From an uncultured Salinisphaerales bacterium (GTDB taxonomy: Bacteria; Pseudomonadota; Gammaproteobacteria; Nevskiales; CAJXLF01), in the NCBI GenBank assembly GCA_913055805.1, contig CAJXLF010000002.1, positions 372,001 to 436,000 on the forward strand: a DNA stretch of 64,000 nucleotides, read 5' to 3'. Within the stretch, counting starts at the first letter, position 1. Every line of letters starts with the position of its first letter. Both the position numbers and the translations under genes were made by a program. This document shows positions 10,709-19,280 of this stretch, one piece after another. The notes below the pieces were generated by a model. That model searched no databases. It saw only the letters and a program-made list of their open reading frames with translations, and was not told the DNA's origin.

Positions 10709-11899
10709 CTAGAAGGCGTATTCCGCCTGCAGCCATAGACGCCGCGTGTCCACGCCGAAGGTATCCTTCGAATAGTCTGCGAACTTGGCCAGCAGCTTGA
10801 ATTTCTCATTCACCGGGTAAACCGCCAGCAAGTCGATTTCGTCACCATAATCCGCGCCCCCGTTATCGGCGCTGAAATCGTGGTAAACCGCCTTGAGCAA
10901 GGTCTTGCCCAACTTGGTGCCGACAACGGCGTACAGATCCTGAACGCCGTCAGCCGGCGTTGCCAGGAACAGATCGGCCCAGCCCTGGAAAGCGTGGGCG
11001 GTGGCGAGCGGCGTCATGAAAGCATAGGTGCCATCACCACCCAGGGATTCATAACCCGCTCCGGCAACCACAACACCGATGGGCATGGAGAAGTCGATCA
11101 GGAAATAATCGGATTCCTGGCCATCAGGCGCATCCGCGTAATCATCTTGGCGGGCGTATTCCAGCGTGTAGCCGAGCTGACTGAAGGTACCGGCCGCTCG
11201 CAGACCGAGGGTGCGGCTGTCCGCCTCTGTCTCGAAATCGAGAAGATAGGCATAGCCGGTCAGGGTCAGGTTCTCAAAACCCGTGTACTGGGTATTGAAC
11301 AGATGCGACGACATGTCGCGATCCTGGAAGAAAATACCATGCGCCTCATCGACATAGACGTAGGTCATCTTGGTGTCTTCGAACCAGGTGTTGCTCAGAT
11401 TCAGGGCGTCGTAGGTCTGCTCGTTCTGACGCCAGCCAACATTACCGATAAAGCGGGCATTATCAAGAATGATTCTCTGACGACCCACGATTGCCGTTGC
11501 GTTTTCAATCCTGTATCTCAGGTAGGCCTGATTGAGCTCCTCACTGGTCGGATCCGCGATCGTGGCGAATGCCGTGTGGCCATTGGTGGCGTCCAGCGAC
11601 GGAGGTCCGCTGTTATATTCCTCGTCGCCTCCGATTGCGAAAGTACCTTCAAACTCGACAAAGGCATCGAATCCCCTGTACTCGGCGGTGGCGTAACCCA
11701 GGCGTGCGCGCAGGGTCAATGCATCCGCATCCTCCTTGCCTTCCTGTTCTGCGGACTCGTAACGCAGGCGTGTATTAAGTGTCGGCTTGCCGCCGGTCAT
11801 CGCTGATTCGAGTGTTCCGCTTTCTCCGGCAGCATGTAATGAAGGCGGCAAACACATTACGGCCAGCGCCGTAAGCGTGATCTTCCCAAAGTTTTTCAA
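10709..11899 (-). CDS. Porin-like outer-membrane beta-barrel protein
   Basis: 396 residues from a TTG at 11899, chosen because GGAG sits 7 bases upstream and the following residues (LKNFGKITLTALAVMCLPPSLHAAGES) form a signal peptide. The frame is open 30 codons further up with a GTG at 11989, but that stretch is the regulatory leader. The mature protein is built of alternating strands with aromatic girdles (LNTRLRYESAEQEG, FDAFVEFEGTF, LRYRIENATAIVGRQRI, GYTLEYARQDDY) and ends in RRLWLQAEYAF, a classic C-terminal Phe barrel signal. It resembles alginate-export or phosphate-selective type porins; the substrate is unknown. It is a separate transcription unit with its own sigma-54 type promoter and structured leader. 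Confidence 0.85.
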   Translation of the reverse strand: MKNFGKITLTALAVMCLPPSLHAAGESGTLESAMTGGKPTLNTRLRYESAEQEGKEDADALTLRARLGYATAEYRGFDAFVEFEGTFAIGGDEEYNSGPPSLDATNGHTAFATIADPTSEELNQAYLRYRIENATAIVGRQRIILDNARFIGNVGWRQNEQTYDALNLSNTWFEDTKMTYVYVDEAHGIFFQDRDMSSHLFNTQYTGFENLTLTGYAYLLDFETEADSRTLGLRAAGTFSQLGYTLEYARQDDYADAPDGQESDYFLIDFSMPIGVVVAGAGYESLGGDGTYAFMTPLATAHAFQGWADLFLATPADGVQDLYAVVGTKLGKTLLKAVYHDFSADNGGADYGDEIDLLAVYPVNEKFKLLAKFADYSKDTFGVDTRRLWLQAEYAF

Positions 11900-11907
11900 A
11901 AGATTTC

Positions 11908-11973
11908 TCCCTGTGACCGGCAACTCGCGAACACCGCTCGCCTCTCCACACACAGGGATGGACGCCGTTGCCC
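11908..11973 (-). promoter_or_regulatory. Leader of porin gene: A1/G4 hexaloop and SD-sequestering stem
   Basis: On the minus strand GGGC-AACGGC-GTCC (11973-11960) is a small stem with a six-base loop whose first base is A and fourth is G, the ANTAR recognition pattern. Immediately downstream TCCCTGTG (11958-11951) can pair with CACAGGGA (11915-11908), which contains the GGGA part of the ribosome-binding site of the porin gene. Control could therefore be at translation initiation as well as transcription. Confidence 0.55.
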
Positions 11974-12015
11974 TAGGACTACTATTCACTGCGACCCCGG
12001 CCCCCTTCTTTGGGT

Positions 12016-12060: not shown

Positions 12061-12076
12061 AGCAATCGGCATGCCA
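12061..12076 (-). promoter_or_regulatory. Sigma-54 type (-24/-12) promoter for the porin gene
   Basis: Minus strand TGGCATGCCGATTGCT matches the RpoN consensus TGGCAYR-N4-TTGCW, with GG and GC exactly 10 bases apart. It lies about 160 bases upstream of the TTG start, leaving room for the structured leader. Confidence 0.75.
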
Positions 12077-16032: not shown

Positions 16033-17316
16033 TTAGAAATCAGCCTGAAGCGAGATGTAGTAGCCGTGCTGTTCCGGCGTAATCGTGATGTCGCCGAGCA
16101 TGGCGTAGGCCATAGTGATGGACAGGTTCTTGCTCGGGAAAAACGCCACGAATACGTCGTACCAGTCGCTTTCCTTCTGTTCGAGGGTGCGGCCCAGTGC
16201 CGGCGTCAGGCCGGTACCGCCCAGGCTCGAGGCCGTCTGGTTGCCCAGATAGATATCCTTCAGGTTCTCGCCGTGCTCCTGGTACTCGAAGCCGATGGCC
16301 GTACCCTTGTTCAACAGGTAGGCAATCGAGCCCTCAAGACGCAGCTCCTTGTCGTTGCCGTCGGGCCCACCGAAACCGGTCAGACCGGTCTGGTTGGCCG
16401 AGGTGTAACGGGCCGTGACATTGACCAGGGTGTTGATGGGGAAGAAGATCTTGGTGGCCGCCACATAGGCTTCCCAGTCTTCCGATTCCGCGGCGCCGAG
16501 CGTTCTCAGCAATTCCTCGTTCTCGTTCTTCTTCCAGAAACCACCGATGGCTACCTGCGGAATCAGATTATCCGAATCGTAGATGGCCTCACCGAAGAGC
16601 CTCAGCTTGACGCCGAAGGACTCCATGGTGATGGTGGTGTTGAAGGGGTCGATACCCTGATTGCCGCCACCGCCGACCAGACCGCCAGTGGCATCGGATA
16701 CTAGCCCATTCAGGTCAAGCGTATCTCCCAGACCCGTAGGCAGTGAGCCATTGCCGGACAGCGCATTGGTCAGATCCGTCAGCTCCAGGCCTTGCCCACC
16801 CAGTGCATCGGTCAAACCACTAAGCGCATCCGGGTTGGAGCCGCTCAGGCCACCCAGGACACTCCCTACAATATCGCCCACCGAACCCGTGGCGTTGCTC
16901 GGGTCATTGAGCAGACCGTTGACCGAAACACCCCCCAGGGTGTCAGTCAGCAGACCCACAGTGTTGAAGGTACTGCCGGTGGTCAGATTGGACCGGGCAT
17001 AGGAAATTTCCAGACGGTCGTAGAAACCGACACGACCCGCCAGAGTGTTCAGGTGATAGTTGGCCAGATCCACATAGGTATACGACAGGTTGCCGTTGAT
17101 ACCGTCGCGGGTTTCATAGCCCGAAATAGTGGCCCAGGGTGTGATACCGCCACCGCCGGCGCCATCCACCATACCGACACCGCCGGTGGCCAGTACCTTG
17201 CCGTTGTTGTACCAGCTCGATGCAGCCATGGCATTACCGCTGGAAAACATGGCGCAGGCTGCGGCCACACCCAGCAGTCGCATAGCTCCAGACCTGTAGT
17301 TTCTTGATCGTTTCAT
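16033..17316 (-). CDS. DUF3034 family outer-membrane protein
   Basis: 427 residues from ATG 17316 (tandem ATGATG; GGGAG lies 6 bases before the second). Signal peptide ends at GNAMA (about residue 31). The mature start SSWYNNGKVLATGGVGMVDGAGGGGITPWA is the DUF3034 hallmark (given as SSWYNNGKVLATGGVGMV). Barrel-like strands follow, ending in HGYYISLQADF, a C-terminal Phe signal for outer-membrane insertion. Residues about 120-224 are a Gly/Leu/Asp/Asn-rich low-complexity insertion with repeats such as GLTDALGG and DLTNALSG. The domain's function is not known to me. It is the first gene of a sigma-54 type operon with a double attenuator leader. Confidence 0.82.
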   Translation of the reverse strand: MKRSRNYRSGAMRLLGVAAACAMFSSGNAMAASSWYNNGKVLATGGVGMVDGAGGGGITPWATISGYETRDGINGNLSYTYVDLANYHLNTLAGRVGFYDRLEISYARSNLTTGSTFNTVGLLTDTLGGVSVNGLLNDPSNATGSVGDIVGSVLGGLSGSNPDALSGLTDALGGQGLELTDLTNALSGNGSLPTGLGDTLDLNGLVSDATGGLVGGGGNQGIDPFNTTITMESFGVKLRLFGEAIYDSDNLIPQVAIGGFWKKNENEELLRTLGAAESEDWEAYVAATKIFFPINTLVNVTARYTSANQTGLTGFGGPDGNDKELRLEGSIAYLLNKGTAIGFEYQEHGENLKDIYLGNQTASSLGGTGLTPALGRTLEQKESDWYDVFVAFFPSKNLSITMAYAMLGDITITPEQHGYYISLQADF

Positions 17317-17340
17317 CATTTGCTCCCTTGATGGATCTCC

Positions 17341-17386
17341 AAAAAAAAACGCCACACCCGCGATTTGCGGATGCGGCGCCATTGCC
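17341..17386 (-). terminator. Attenuator unit 2 before DUF3034: hexaloop hairpin and terminator
   Basis: Minus strand GGC-AATGGC-GCC (17386-17375) has a six-base loop with A at 1 and G at 4. Its 3' arm is part of the terminator stem formed by GCGCCGCATCCGC and GCGGGTGTGGCG, followed by nine T residues. The two structures are mutually exclusive, the layout of an ANTAR antiterminator. It ends 25 bases before the DUF3034 start. Confidence 0.75.
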
Positions 17387-17414: not shown

Positions 17415-17463
17415 AAAACGCCCCGCTCACTGCTTTCGCTCATGAGAAGGGCGTCGTTGCCTT
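17415..17463 (-). terminator. Attenuator unit 1 before DUF3034: hexaloop hairpin and terminator
   Basis: Minus strand AAGGC-AACGAC-GCCCTT (17463-17447) is a hairpin with an A1/G4 six-base loop. Its 3' arm overlaps the 5' arm of a long stem ending GGGGCGTTTT (17424-17415). The unit has the same order as the one before the ANTAR-1 gene. Confidence 0.75.
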
Positions 17464-17490
17464 ACCAATGTTGTACCGATTGCAACCCGA

Positions 17491-17504
17491 CTCCGTCATT
17501 GGAG
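17491..17504 (-). promoter_or_regulatory. Upstream hexaloop hairpin (P1-like) of the DUF3034 leader
   Basis: Minus strand CTCC-AATGAC-GGAG: a perfect 4-bp stem around a six-base loop with A at position 1 and G at 4. With the hairpin at 17447-17463 it gives the dual-hexaloop (P1/P2) arrangement recognised by ANTAR proteins, although the linker here is about 27 bases and contains another small stem. Confidence 0.6.
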
Positions 17505-17555
17505 GTCTGCCACCGCATGGCAACAGATGGGTTATTGACCAGTCAGCTTCACTCT

Positions 17556-17571
17556 AGCAAGCTGCGTGCCA
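17556..17571 (-). promoter_or_regulatory. Sigma-54 type promoter for the DUF3034 operon
   Basis: Minus strand TGGCACGCAGCTTGCT is an exact match to the RpoN consensus TGGCACG-N4-TTGCW. It lies just before the ANTAR-1 stop region on the same strand and about 240 bases upstream of DUF3034, so the attenuator leader is transcribed from it. Confidence 0.85.
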
Positions 17572-17587: not shown

Positions 17588-18199
17588 CTAGGACAAGCTC
17601 TTGAGCAGCTTGTCCTTGCCCGCTCCACCCTTGCGCACATGCGCTGCCAGAATGGCCTTGCTGACATCGACGATGCGCTGACTGCGATTCATGGCCGTTG
17701 TGCGCAGACTGCTGTAGGCCGCCTGTTCACTCATGCCCTGCTCTTCCATGAGCAGGCATTTGGCCTGCTCGATGTAACGATGATCGGACAGTTCCTGCTG
17801 AACATTCTCCAGCTCATCCTGCAACAATCGCTGATTGATGAAGTACATCGACGCCACTTCGATCAGCGAATGCAGCAACAGCGGCGTCAGGGCCTCGACC
17901 ACATGCAGGATGACCCCGGATTGCATGGCTGAAATCACCATCTCGTCGCTGCCGCGGCGCGTGAACATCACCACCGGACAACGCCGGGAAATATCTATAT
18001 CAGACAGCGTTGCCAATAACTCCGGTGTGGGTTCATCAGCTTCAATCACCACGATTTCCGGATTCAGGAATTTCATCCTGTCTTTCAACGCACCGGTTAC
18101 CGGCACGACTTCCAGCAATGTGTAGCCCGCTGCTGCCAGCCCCGTCTCCAGACGGGTCCAGTCATCATGACAAGCCTGCACTACAAGCACACGCTTCAC
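17588..18199 (-). CDS. ANTAR-domain RNA-binding antiterminator 1
   Basis: 203 residues from the GTG at 18199, which has GGAGGG about 10 bases upstream and aligns with its paralogue; an ATG at 18217 or GTG at 18241 would extend it. Residues 1-120 are a receiver-like domain (VKRVLVVQACHDDWTRLE, MFTRRGSDEMVISAMQSG). The C-terminal about 65 residues are the ANTAR three-helix domain (YIEQAKCLLMEEQGMSEQAAYSSLRTTAMNRSQRIVDVSKAILAA). ANTAR proteins bind paired hexaloop RNA hairpins and prevent termination. The usual phosphoacceptor Asp is Glu53 and the acidic pair is missing, so it is probably not controlled by phosphorylation. Its own leader carries two attenuator units, suggesting autoregulation. 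Confidence 0.88.
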   Translation of the reverse strand: MKRVLVVQACHDDWTRLETGLAAAGYTLLEVVPVTGALKDRMKFLNPEIVVIEADEPTPELLATLSDIDISRRCPVVMFTRRGSDEMVISAMQSGVILHVVEALTPLLLHSLIEVASMYFINQRLLQDELENVQQELSDHRYIEQAKCLLMEEQGMSEQAAYSSLRTTAMNRSQRIVDVSKAILAAHVRKGGAGKDKLLKSLS

Positions 18200-18252
18200 T
18201 GTCGATTCCCTCCCCATTACTCTGCGACTGTCCTTGTGCACGGCTGTTGTTC

Positions 18253-18301
18253 AAAAAAAAACGCCTCCCCCATGCCATGCACGGAAGAGGCGTCATTGCC
18301 T
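18253..18301 (-). terminator. Attenuator unit 2 before ANTAR-1
   Basis: Minus strand AGGC-AATGAC-GCCT (18301-18288): A1/G4 hexaloop whose 3' arm overlaps a terminator stem (ACGCCTCTTCC with GGGGGAGGCGT) followed by nine T residues. It lies about 50 bases upstream of the GTG start. Confidence 0.78.
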
Positions 18302-18310
18302 ATGCACAAT

Positions 18311-18358
18311 AAAAAACGCCCTGCTCACGGCCAGGCCGTTGAGTAGGGCGTCGTTGCC
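18311..18358 (-). terminator. Attenuator unit 1 before ANTAR-1
   Basis: Minus strand GGC-AACGAC-GCC (18358-18347): A1/G4 hexaloop overlapping a long terminator stem, ACGCCCTACTCAACGGC against GCCGTGAGCAGGGCGT, then six T residues. It is nearly identical in layout to unit 1 of the DUF3034 leader. Confidence 0.78.
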
Positions 18359-18362
18359 AGAT

Positions 18363-18440
18363 CACCTGTATGCGGTTATTGCATACCCGACTTTGGGTGG
18401 CGATGGCCCGGGCCACCGCACTCAGTCATAACCGCAATCT
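18363..18440 (-). promoter_or_regulatory. Structured 5' part of the ANTAR-1 leader
   Basis: Minus strand: an outer stem GCGGTTAT / ATAACCGC encloses an inner stem GGTGGC / GCCACC. Overlapping the 3' arm, GTATGC-AATAACC-GCATAC forms a competing 6-bp hairpin. The words GCGGTGG and AGTCGGGT are shared with the DUF3034 leader, pointing to common descent. I could not find a clear A1/G4 hexaloop here. Confidence 0.5.
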
Positions 18441-18461
18441 CTTGGATTCCGTCATGAGTAC

Positions 18462-18477
18462 AGCAAAGCGCATGCCA
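18462..18477 (-). promoter_or_regulatory. Sigma-54 type promoter for ANTAR-1
   Basis: Minus strand TGGCATGCGCTTTGCT fits TGGCAYR-N4-TTGCW with GG-N10-GC spacing. It is about 260 bases upstream of ANTAR-1, preceding the two attenuator units. Confidence 0.78.
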
Positions 18478-18546: not shown

Positions 18547-19134
18547 TCACTTTGATCGGGCAGCCAGCAGGGCGCGCGAAACATCCACCAACCGCTGGCT
18601 ACGATGCATGGCCGTGCTGCGTAACGAGGCATATGCCTCGTTTTCGCTCAGCCCCTCTTCCTCCATCAGAAAGTACTTGGCCTGCTCGATGTATCGCTGC
18701 TCAACCAGCTTGTTCTGCAACGTTTCCAGTTCATCCTGCAGCAGATGCTGGTTAAGGTAATACAGGGCGGCGACTTCGATCAGCGAGTGCAGCAAAAGCG
18801 GCGTCAGGGCCTCGACCACGTGCAGAACCACACCCAGCTGCATGGCCGTCATCACCATGCGGTCGCTGCCCCTGCGGGTAAACAACACAACCGGACAGCC
18901 ACTGGCATGTTCGACCTGGGCCAGCTGTTCCAGAACCTGCATTCGCGGCTCATCAGCCTCGGCCACCAGCATATCCGGCTGCAAAAGCTTCACCCGATCC
19001 TCGATGCGGGCCGTCGCAGGCAAAATATCCAGCAGACTGTAACCGGCTTCCACCAAACCGCTTTCCAGCCGCGTCCAGTCATCATGGCAAGCCTGCACCA
19101 TCAGCACACGCTTAACTCCCGCCCTGTATAGCAT
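18547..19134 (-). CDS. ANTAR-domain RNA-binding antiterminator 2
   Basis: 195 residues from ATG 19134 (GGAG six bases upstream). It is a clear paralogue of ANTAR-1 over its full length: VKRVLMVQACHDDWTRLE, VVLFTRRGSDRMVMTAMQ, VVEALTPLLLHSLIEVAALY and a C-terminal ANTAR domain (YIEQAKYFLMEEEGLSENEAYASLRSTAMHRSQRLVDVSRALLAA). The phosphoacceptor position is Glu59 instead of Asp. Unlike ANTAR-1 it has only a short leader, about 45 bases, with no terminator, so it may be made whenever its promoter is active and then open the downstream attenuators. Confidence 0.88.
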   Translation of the reverse strand: MLYRAGVKRVLMVQACHDDWTRLESGLVEAGYSLLDILPATARIEDRVKLLQPDMLVAEADEPRMQVLEQLAQVEHASGCPVVLFTRRGSDRMVMTAMQLGVVLHVVEALTPLLLHSLIEVAALYYLNQHLLQDELETLQNKLVEQRYIEQAKYFLMEEEGLSENEAYASLRSTAMHRSQRLVDVSRALLAARSK

Positions 19135-19177: not shown

Positions 19178-19195
19178 GCGCAATATACGTGCCGG
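19178..19195 (-). promoter_or_regulatory. Sigma-54 type promoter for ANTAR-2
   Basis: Minus strand CCGGCACGTATATTGCGC: GG-N10-GC spacing and GGCACG-N4-TTGC agree with the RpoN consensus, with only the first T replaced by C. It is about 46 bases upstream of the ATG. Confidence 0.68.
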
Positions 19196-19280
19196 GTTTT
19201 GTTTCATAGAGAGAAAAGCTGCAATCCGGGGGGACTGCACCATTATTACGCTGCAATGCACAATTTGCGTGCTGGCAGGC

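Follow-up and report, generated by a model that had tools for sequence, protein, structure and literature searches.

The window is a 64-kb stretch of DNA from a genome of 3.38 Mb in 21 contigs. All switch and ANTAR parts lie on its minus strand, where the gene order is ANTAR-2, ANTAR-1, a DUF3034 gene and genes encoding globin-like, FMN-binding, PepSY-TM and OmpA/cupredoxin proteins (Table 1). The ANTAR domains scored 58.2 and 56.7 bits against a Pfam cut-off of 27.3. The ANTAR-1 start has in-frame alternatives at 18217 and 18241. No further ANTAR domains were found genome-wide, leaving ANTAR-1 and ANTAR-2 as the sole candidate regulators. Two RpoN genes were present, on contigs C7 (109 kb) and C2 (284 kb), so sigma-54 is available to promoters. 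No match to the NrtA/NasS family (PF13379) was found in the 95.7%-complete genome. The DUF3034 protein contains a long Gly/Leu/Asn-rich insert (approximately residues 136-215; window 16675-16915, minus strand) which interrupts the match to its relatives. A terminator-like hairpin at 19239-19220 (minus strand) separates an SMR-type transporter gene from ANTAR-2 and probably marks where the transporter transcript ends.

Table 1. Positions of the genes, promoters and predicted RNA elements in the window.
Feature	Position	Strand	Basis or remark
NtrC-like palindrome GCAC-N7-GTGC	19258..19272		Upstream of ANTAR-2 promoter; putative function
Sigma-54-like promoter of ANTAR-2, CGGCACGTATATTGCG	19179..19194	-	Form CGGCACG-N4-TTGC, common before relatives' ANTAR genes
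ANTAR-2 gene	18547..19134	-	Receiver-like + ANTAR domain; PF03861 E=2.1e-15
Sigma-54 promoter of ANTAR-1, TGGCATGCGCTTTGC	18463..18477	-	1 of 13 strict genome matches; reversed control 4
Predicted three-way junction, ANTAR-1 leader	18371..18436	-	Closing stem TGCGGTTAT/ATAACCGCA, GCGGTGG hairpin, P1; leader MFE fold
P1 hairpin ACCC-AAAGTC-GGGT	18385..18398	-	14-leader covariation; detected by window-free model R2
P2a antiterminator hairpin GGC-AACGAC-GCC	18347..18358	-	Fold + covariation
Terminator T1	18311..18352	-	Overlaps P2a; -25.1 kcal/mol, 6 U
P2b hairpin AGGC-AATGAC-GCCT	18288..18301	-	Hexaloop + fold
Terminator T2	18253..18294	-	Overlaps P2b; -27.4 kcal/mol, 9 U
ANTAR-1 gene	17588..18205	-	PF03861 E=7e-16; GTG at 18205 preceded by GGGGAGGG
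Sigma-54 promoter of DUF3034 operon	17557..17571	-	Also before nearly all relatives' DUF3034 genes read
Predicted three-way junction, DUF3034 leader	17483..17534	-	P1 CTCC-AATGAC-GGAG at 17504-17491
P2a + T1, DUF3034 leader	17415..17461	-	P2a 17461-17450; T1 17455-17415, just 4 U
P2b + T2, DUF3034 leader	17341..17386	-	P2b 17386-17375; T2 17380-17341, 9 U
DUF3034 gene, first gene of envelope operon	16033..17319	-	PF11231 E=2.5e-78
Sigma-54 promoter of porin leader	12062..12076	-	Strict match
P1 + P2, porin leader	11964..12014	-	P1 CCC-AAAGAA-GGG, loop 12011-12006; P2 loop 11969-11964
Alginate-export-type porin gene, third putative target	10709..11899	-	PF13372; TTG start

An earlier note on this DNA had placed a sigma-54 promoter and two hexaloop-terminator units (loops AACGAC and AATGAC) before ANTAR-1, and these were located where it had put them. 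The strict promoter match at 18477-18463 reads TGGCATGCGCTTTGCT; sigma-54 assignment was based on the form TGGCAYR-N4-TTGC together with an RpoN gene, and both were found. The MFE fold of the leader was computed from a start at 18452. The P2a hexaloop ggcAACGACgcc has its loop at 18355-18350 and the P2b hexaloop aggcAATGACgcct at 18297-18292. In both units the 3' arm of the hexaloop hairpin is common to the intrinsic terminator. The bases with which the terminator begins also form part of the P2 stem, making P2a and T1, and likewise P2b and T2, mutually exclusive folds. The units are real, but the note treated each hexaloop with its terminator as complete and overlooked the canonical first hairpin, P1. 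No P1-type hexaloop for P2b lies within 75 nt of it, apart from P2a. No RNA family was matched in Rfam at gathering or relaxed thresholds.

The ANTAR-1 leader was also said to repeat the design of the DUF3034 leader, and this agrees with an identity of 82% over 198 aligned columns, spanning promoter to T2 (local score 112 vs. 29 ± 5.6; 0 of 500 shuffles as good). By sequence comparison the two leaders are paralogues. Each contains exactly three A1/G4 hexaloops in the same order. The unit 1 loop, AACGAC, is identical in both while that of unit 2 is AATGAC in the ANTAR-1 leader and AATGGC in the DUF3034 leader, where T2 is the stronger terminator (9 U vs. 4 U). Both of the words singled out as shared, GCGGTGG and AGTCGGGT, fall within the predicted three-way junction carrying P1, but AGTCGGGT takes a different structural position in each leader. 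It forms the P1 loop end and 3' arm in the ANTAR-1 leader and the P1 end and closing stem in the DUF3034 leader. As a single conserved functional word it was ruled out because of these differing roles. Between the two copies of T2, 5 of 13 pairs differ, three of them on both sides, and none is broken. Such changes fit a stem kept by selection in each copy, in a comparison of two paralogous leaders whose tandem units were absent from the related genomes examined.

Hexaloop-terminator units were found in 0 of 1000 dinucleotide shuffles of each leader, and three hexaloops in 7 and 12 of 1000 for the two leaders. The unit finder is strict: it counts one of the two ANTAR-1 units in the trimmed segment and no unit before DUF3034. 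The basis of the shuffle comparison is therefore the ANTAR-1 unit together with the hexaloop count. The pattern GCAANGNCGCC-N10..40-GGCGTTTT had four matches in the 3.38-Mb genome, two per leader, compared to one for the reversed control. A simple hexaloop pattern was too unspecific as a genome-wide finder and was dropped.

The earlier note overlooked a third target, the porin gene. Its leader (12076-11900, minus strand) comprises the sigma-54 promoter, a GCGGTGG hairpin, P1 and, after 29 nt, a P2 with loop AACGGC. Within these positions there is no U-run terminator and a hairpin extends to the ribosome-binding region, so the predicted fold suggests that this leader may act translationally. 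Homologous porins sit behind ANTAR units in relatives.

The nearest DUF3034 genes among named relatives were those of Nevskiales (Solimonas, Nevskia, Panacagrimonas, Stenotrophobium, Hydrocarboniphaga) and Zhongshania/Spongiibacter. The comparison genomes came from outside the window organism's family and a search of genome contigs for the ANTAR pair found no relative; an orthologous leader of the same family was thus absent from the comparison. In other Nevskiales most of the DUF3034 genes read are preceded by a sigma-54 promoter and a single assembly of P1, a linker of approximately 6-13 nt, P2 (in most cases ggacAxxGxxgtcc) and one terminator. The sigma-54/P1-P2-terminator arrangement before DUF3034 therefore recurs in other genera; the window alone showed two terminators in tandem. 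The tandem-unit pattern matched only the window among 85 genomes of the order, a search with fixed stem letters which other stems would escape. In a stem-independent scan the 78 other unit-like matches in relatives, some of them due to chance, contained no tandem units.

A second class of leader with a linker of 22-34 nt was found before NarK-like, NrtA-like, NirB-like and alginate-type porin genes and before one ANTAR gene (L004/L099). The window leaders have this long-linker geometry (26, 29 and 29 nt) and the loop style AAxGxx. In 14 long-linker leaders the P1-P2 helices were paired in 95.5% of cells and 21 cells were changed on both sides (shuffled mean 7.7). The P1-P2 covariation score was 0.503, compared to 0.205 when shuffled and at most 0.17 when slid. 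Covariance model R2 was built from 11 leaders of other genera with the window leaders left out. Its first three matches in the window were the porin (26.6 bits, E 3.6e-4), ANTAR-1 (21.5 bits, E 4.4e-3) and DUF3034 (18.8 bits, E 1.6e-2) leaders. Genome-wide the porin leader ranked first (E 0.019) and the ANTAR-1 leader second (E 0.23), both modest E-values, and the DUF3034 leader was not among the best 150 of 2497 candidates. Other genome matches of R2 (L216-L218) lie within coding sequence without a terminator unit and were put down to chance.

ANTAR genes with hexaloop(s) and a terminator upstream were found in L096, L097 and L099, so the motif is not a one-off, and an ANTAR gene behind its own type of switch is, on these sequences, not a single accident. 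Taken with the P1-P2 covariation and the same architecture before DUF3034 elsewhere, these attenuators strongly support the identity of the double attenuator as an ANTAR target, as far as sequence can indicate. The Panacagrimonas-type loci L093, L096 and L097 have divergent ANTAR pairs in which one gene has its own P1/P2-like attenuator; the P2 loop is possibly 7 nt in L093 and L096. ANTAR-type leaders occur Nevskiales-wide before DUF3034, OmpA-like porin, FMN_bind, nitrate and other genes (L118-L150), and no description of a Nevskiales-wide ANTAR regulon was found in the literature consulted. On contig C5 (approximately 244-246 kb) strict sigma-54 promoters precede NarK-like and NirB-like genes (L207/L208), but dual hexaloops are missing. 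A single hairpin, CCC-AACGAG-GGG, lies in the NarK leader, where the ribosome-binding site is presumed to be.

The published ANTAR target consists of P1 and P2, and its general definition permits a variable linker (Ramesh 2012, PMC3369931). Hairpins with A1/G4 hexaloops, the second overlapping the 5' arm of a terminator, were present here. The linkers of 26 and 29 nt exceed the 5-12 nt of eut and the 2-25 nt used for actinobacteria, and in EutV targets, with their 5-12 nt linkers, an additional 20 nt abolished EutV action. Long spacing per se is not new, since published coordinates put 46 bp between hairpins HI and HII of Paracoccus nasA. Long-linker leaders have a further hairpin, with its end 0-3 nt (in most cases 0 or 1) ahead of P1, and the sequences flanking these two hairpins are able to pair. 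With the geometry fixed, flank pairing exceeded that of permuted flanks (p=6e-5 with all 18 leaders; p=8e-4 with the 15 non-window leaders); this test superseded a free duplex test (p=0.006). The ANTAR-1 closing stem, present in the MFE fold, is farther from the junction and was unscored in the permutation test. The junction would shorten the path to P2a to 12 nt in the ANTAR-1 leader and 21 nt in the DUF3034 leader, which may reconcile the long linker with the EutV spacing limit. The long linker would be tolerable given the predicted junction and the existence of a 22-34 nt class among relatives. The literature search found no paper linking the term three-way junction with ANTAR.

ANTAR-1 and ANTAR-2 are 64% identical and form a lineage-specific sister pair (support 100/99). 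In the tree they group with NasT-type ANTARs of the order. Placing them in the clade of ANTARs found alongside DUF3034 elsewhere in Nevskiales was rejected (p-AU 0.004), a result to be read with caution given the long branches. The EutV G4-contact residues K149, E160 and Y164, and also R168, M172 and R177, are retained in both proteins. N173 is kept in ANTAR-1 and is His in ANTAR-2, R175 is Ser in both and R142 is His/Gln. As both proteins have the residues that hold G4 and the genome has no other ANTAR, either may be the one that acts. In the receiver-like domain Glu occupies the expected phospho-Asp position (EADEP; alignment read by eye), so activity may be governed by amount rather than phosphorylation.

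ANTAR-2, as the earlier note had it, has a short leader without an attenuator, and there is no A1/G4 hexaloop in its 5' region. Its sigma-54-like promoter had been overlooked. The form CGGCACG-N4-TTGC approximately 50-100 nt before ANTAR genes, with no attenuator, is a common type in the order which ANTAR-2 has kept. The palindrome upstream is one of two exact GCAC-N7-GTGC matches in 64 kb, and the ANTAR gene of L079 has one approximately 80 bp upstream in the same layout. Since this promoter is also sigma-54-like, promoters do not fix the time order of ANTAR-2 and ANTAR-1, and the missing attenuator is the one remaining argument that ANTAR-2 is made first. That absence underlies the proposed cascade from ANTAR-2 to ANTAR-1 to the envelope operon, which is plausible but unproven.

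The reading that fits best, and is held to be fairly probable as a whole, combines a sigma-54 ANTAR-controlled antitermination leader, an autoregulatory feed-forward circuit and a tandem duplication. Leader elements, leader kinship, the sister relation of the ANTARs and P1-P2 covariation in related leaders were established by sequence comparison; binding, termination, antitermination, the precedence of ANTAR-2 over ANTAR-1 and what the second unit does were inferred. By default RNA polymerase would halt at T1 or T2. A dimer of active ANTAR protein would be recruited at the P1 hexaloop, held in the three-way junction, and would catch the emerging P2a hexaloop, blocking T1. The contest of P2b with T2 would need an equal capture, giving a tight gate. 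ANTAR-2 could provide the first ANTAR protein, ANTAR-1 would then boost its own synthesis and both would open the DUF3034 leader, a circuit of positive autoregulation within a feed-forward loop. All four units may start together, with the attenuators serving as delay and threshold. That ANTAR proteins open both leaders is most likely on the sequence evidence. Points against this reading are P2b without a nearby P1, a P1-P2a linker longer than that of EutV, the N173/R175 changes, the lack of tandem units in related genomes, the sigma-54-like promoter of ANTAR-2 and the ANTAR-1 closing stem that did not score. The layout is most likely best explained by a tandem duplication of an ANTAR gene with the downstream DUF3034 leader, which would give the order ANTAR-2, leader copy, ANTAR-1, leader, DUF3034 and explain the DUF3034-type leader on ANTAR-1. 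Duplication breakpoints were not found.

A duplication needs no selected circuit. The paralogous leaders, the recent ANTAR pair and sigma-54-type promoters on both ANTAR genes suit an account with genuine ANTAR attenuation but without a cascade, in which the leader hitchhiked with the duplication, the ANTARs are redundant and basal readthrough of T1/T2 is enough to start ANTAR-1. This is a serious possibility, held at somewhat less than even confidence. Both copied hexaloop-terminator units are however intact, the T2 pairs changed in a compensatory manner and other genera also have attenuated ANTAR genes. It is improbable that the units divide the labour as an AND gate, with different ANTARs reading, for example, P1-P2a and P2b, and both required. 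The identical unit 1 loops, the differing unit 2 loops and the deviation of ANTAR-2 at N173 would suit such a gate, but both proteins share the G4-contact residues and EutV binds single hexaloops of various sequence equally (PMC8934654). T1 and T2 lie between two co-directional genes and have stable stems and U runs, as plain 3'-end terminators of ANTAR-2 without a regulatory role would; this is very improbable, as a sigma-54 promoter sits between ANTAR-2 and T1/T2, P1 and P2 precede the terminators and the same assembly stands before DUF3034 and its orthologues. Least credible is an ANTAR-independent small-molecule riboswitch in the 5' section, which is folded and conserved between the two leaders but matched no Rfam family and bears the P1 hexaloop, with the hairpin and P1 recurring in ANTAR-type leaders of other genera.

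A bolder form of the preferred ANTAR antitermination circuit is rather unlikely. Here one dimer would be relayed from P1 to P2a to P2b past serial terminators as a bistable switch, protein amount would be the signal instead of a NasS-type ligand, and P1 held in a junction and followed by a linker of 22-34 nt would define a second structural class of ANTAR target. Expression would then climb steeply with ANTAR concentration.

ANTAR proteins open single attenuators of metabolic operons. In the window an ANTAR gene is itself placed behind its target switch, copied and doubled in series, and no NasS-type sensor was detected in the genome. If the preferred reading is correct the circuit would convert graded input to a switch, and recruitment on P1 with hand-over to P2 would become testable on tandem acceptors and on linkers held by a junction and of a length that EutV rejects. 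DUF3034, a family of unknown function, appears as an ANTAR and sigma-54 target across Nevskiales beside nitrate genes and porins, a first lead to its role.

Among known systems, EutV/eut of Enterococcus faecalis (PMC3369931; structure PMC8934654) is alike in its two A1/G4 hexaloops, the second overlapping an intrinsic terminator, in its REC and ANTAR protein and in the control of multiple leaders of one locus. It differs in its 5-12 nt linker and one terminator per leader, compared to 26-29 nt and a predicted junction here, and its receiver is phosphorylatable whereas here Glu aligns with the acceptor position. NasT-NasS (Paracoccus nasA, PMC5424462/PMC3795266; Bradyrhizobium, PMC6759348) resembles the window in the grouping of the ANTARs with NasT-type proteins and in the long-linker leaders of the window type which precede nitrate genes in relatives. 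As a further likeness, the Paracoccus nasT gene depends on an NtrC site. Differences are the lack of a detected PF13379 protein in the window genome, the targets (DUF3034 operon, ANTAR-1 and porin) and the tandem terminators. The NasR-controlled nasF leader of Klebsiella (PMC3369936) shares the P1-P2-terminator logic and A1/G4 hexaloops, but NasR has its own nitrate-sensing NIT domain and the leader has a single terminator. No description of auto-attenuated Nevskiales ANTAR genes was found in the literature consulted. Nevskiales L096, L097 and L099 are alike in having hexaloop(s) and a terminator before an ANTAR gene, one of two ANTARs in L096 and L097, and differ in their single terminator and, in L096, a P2 loop of possibly 7 nt. 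The mechanism itself, ANTAR antitermination, is known; tandem terminators and a switch of its own type on an ANTAR gene are a variant of it.
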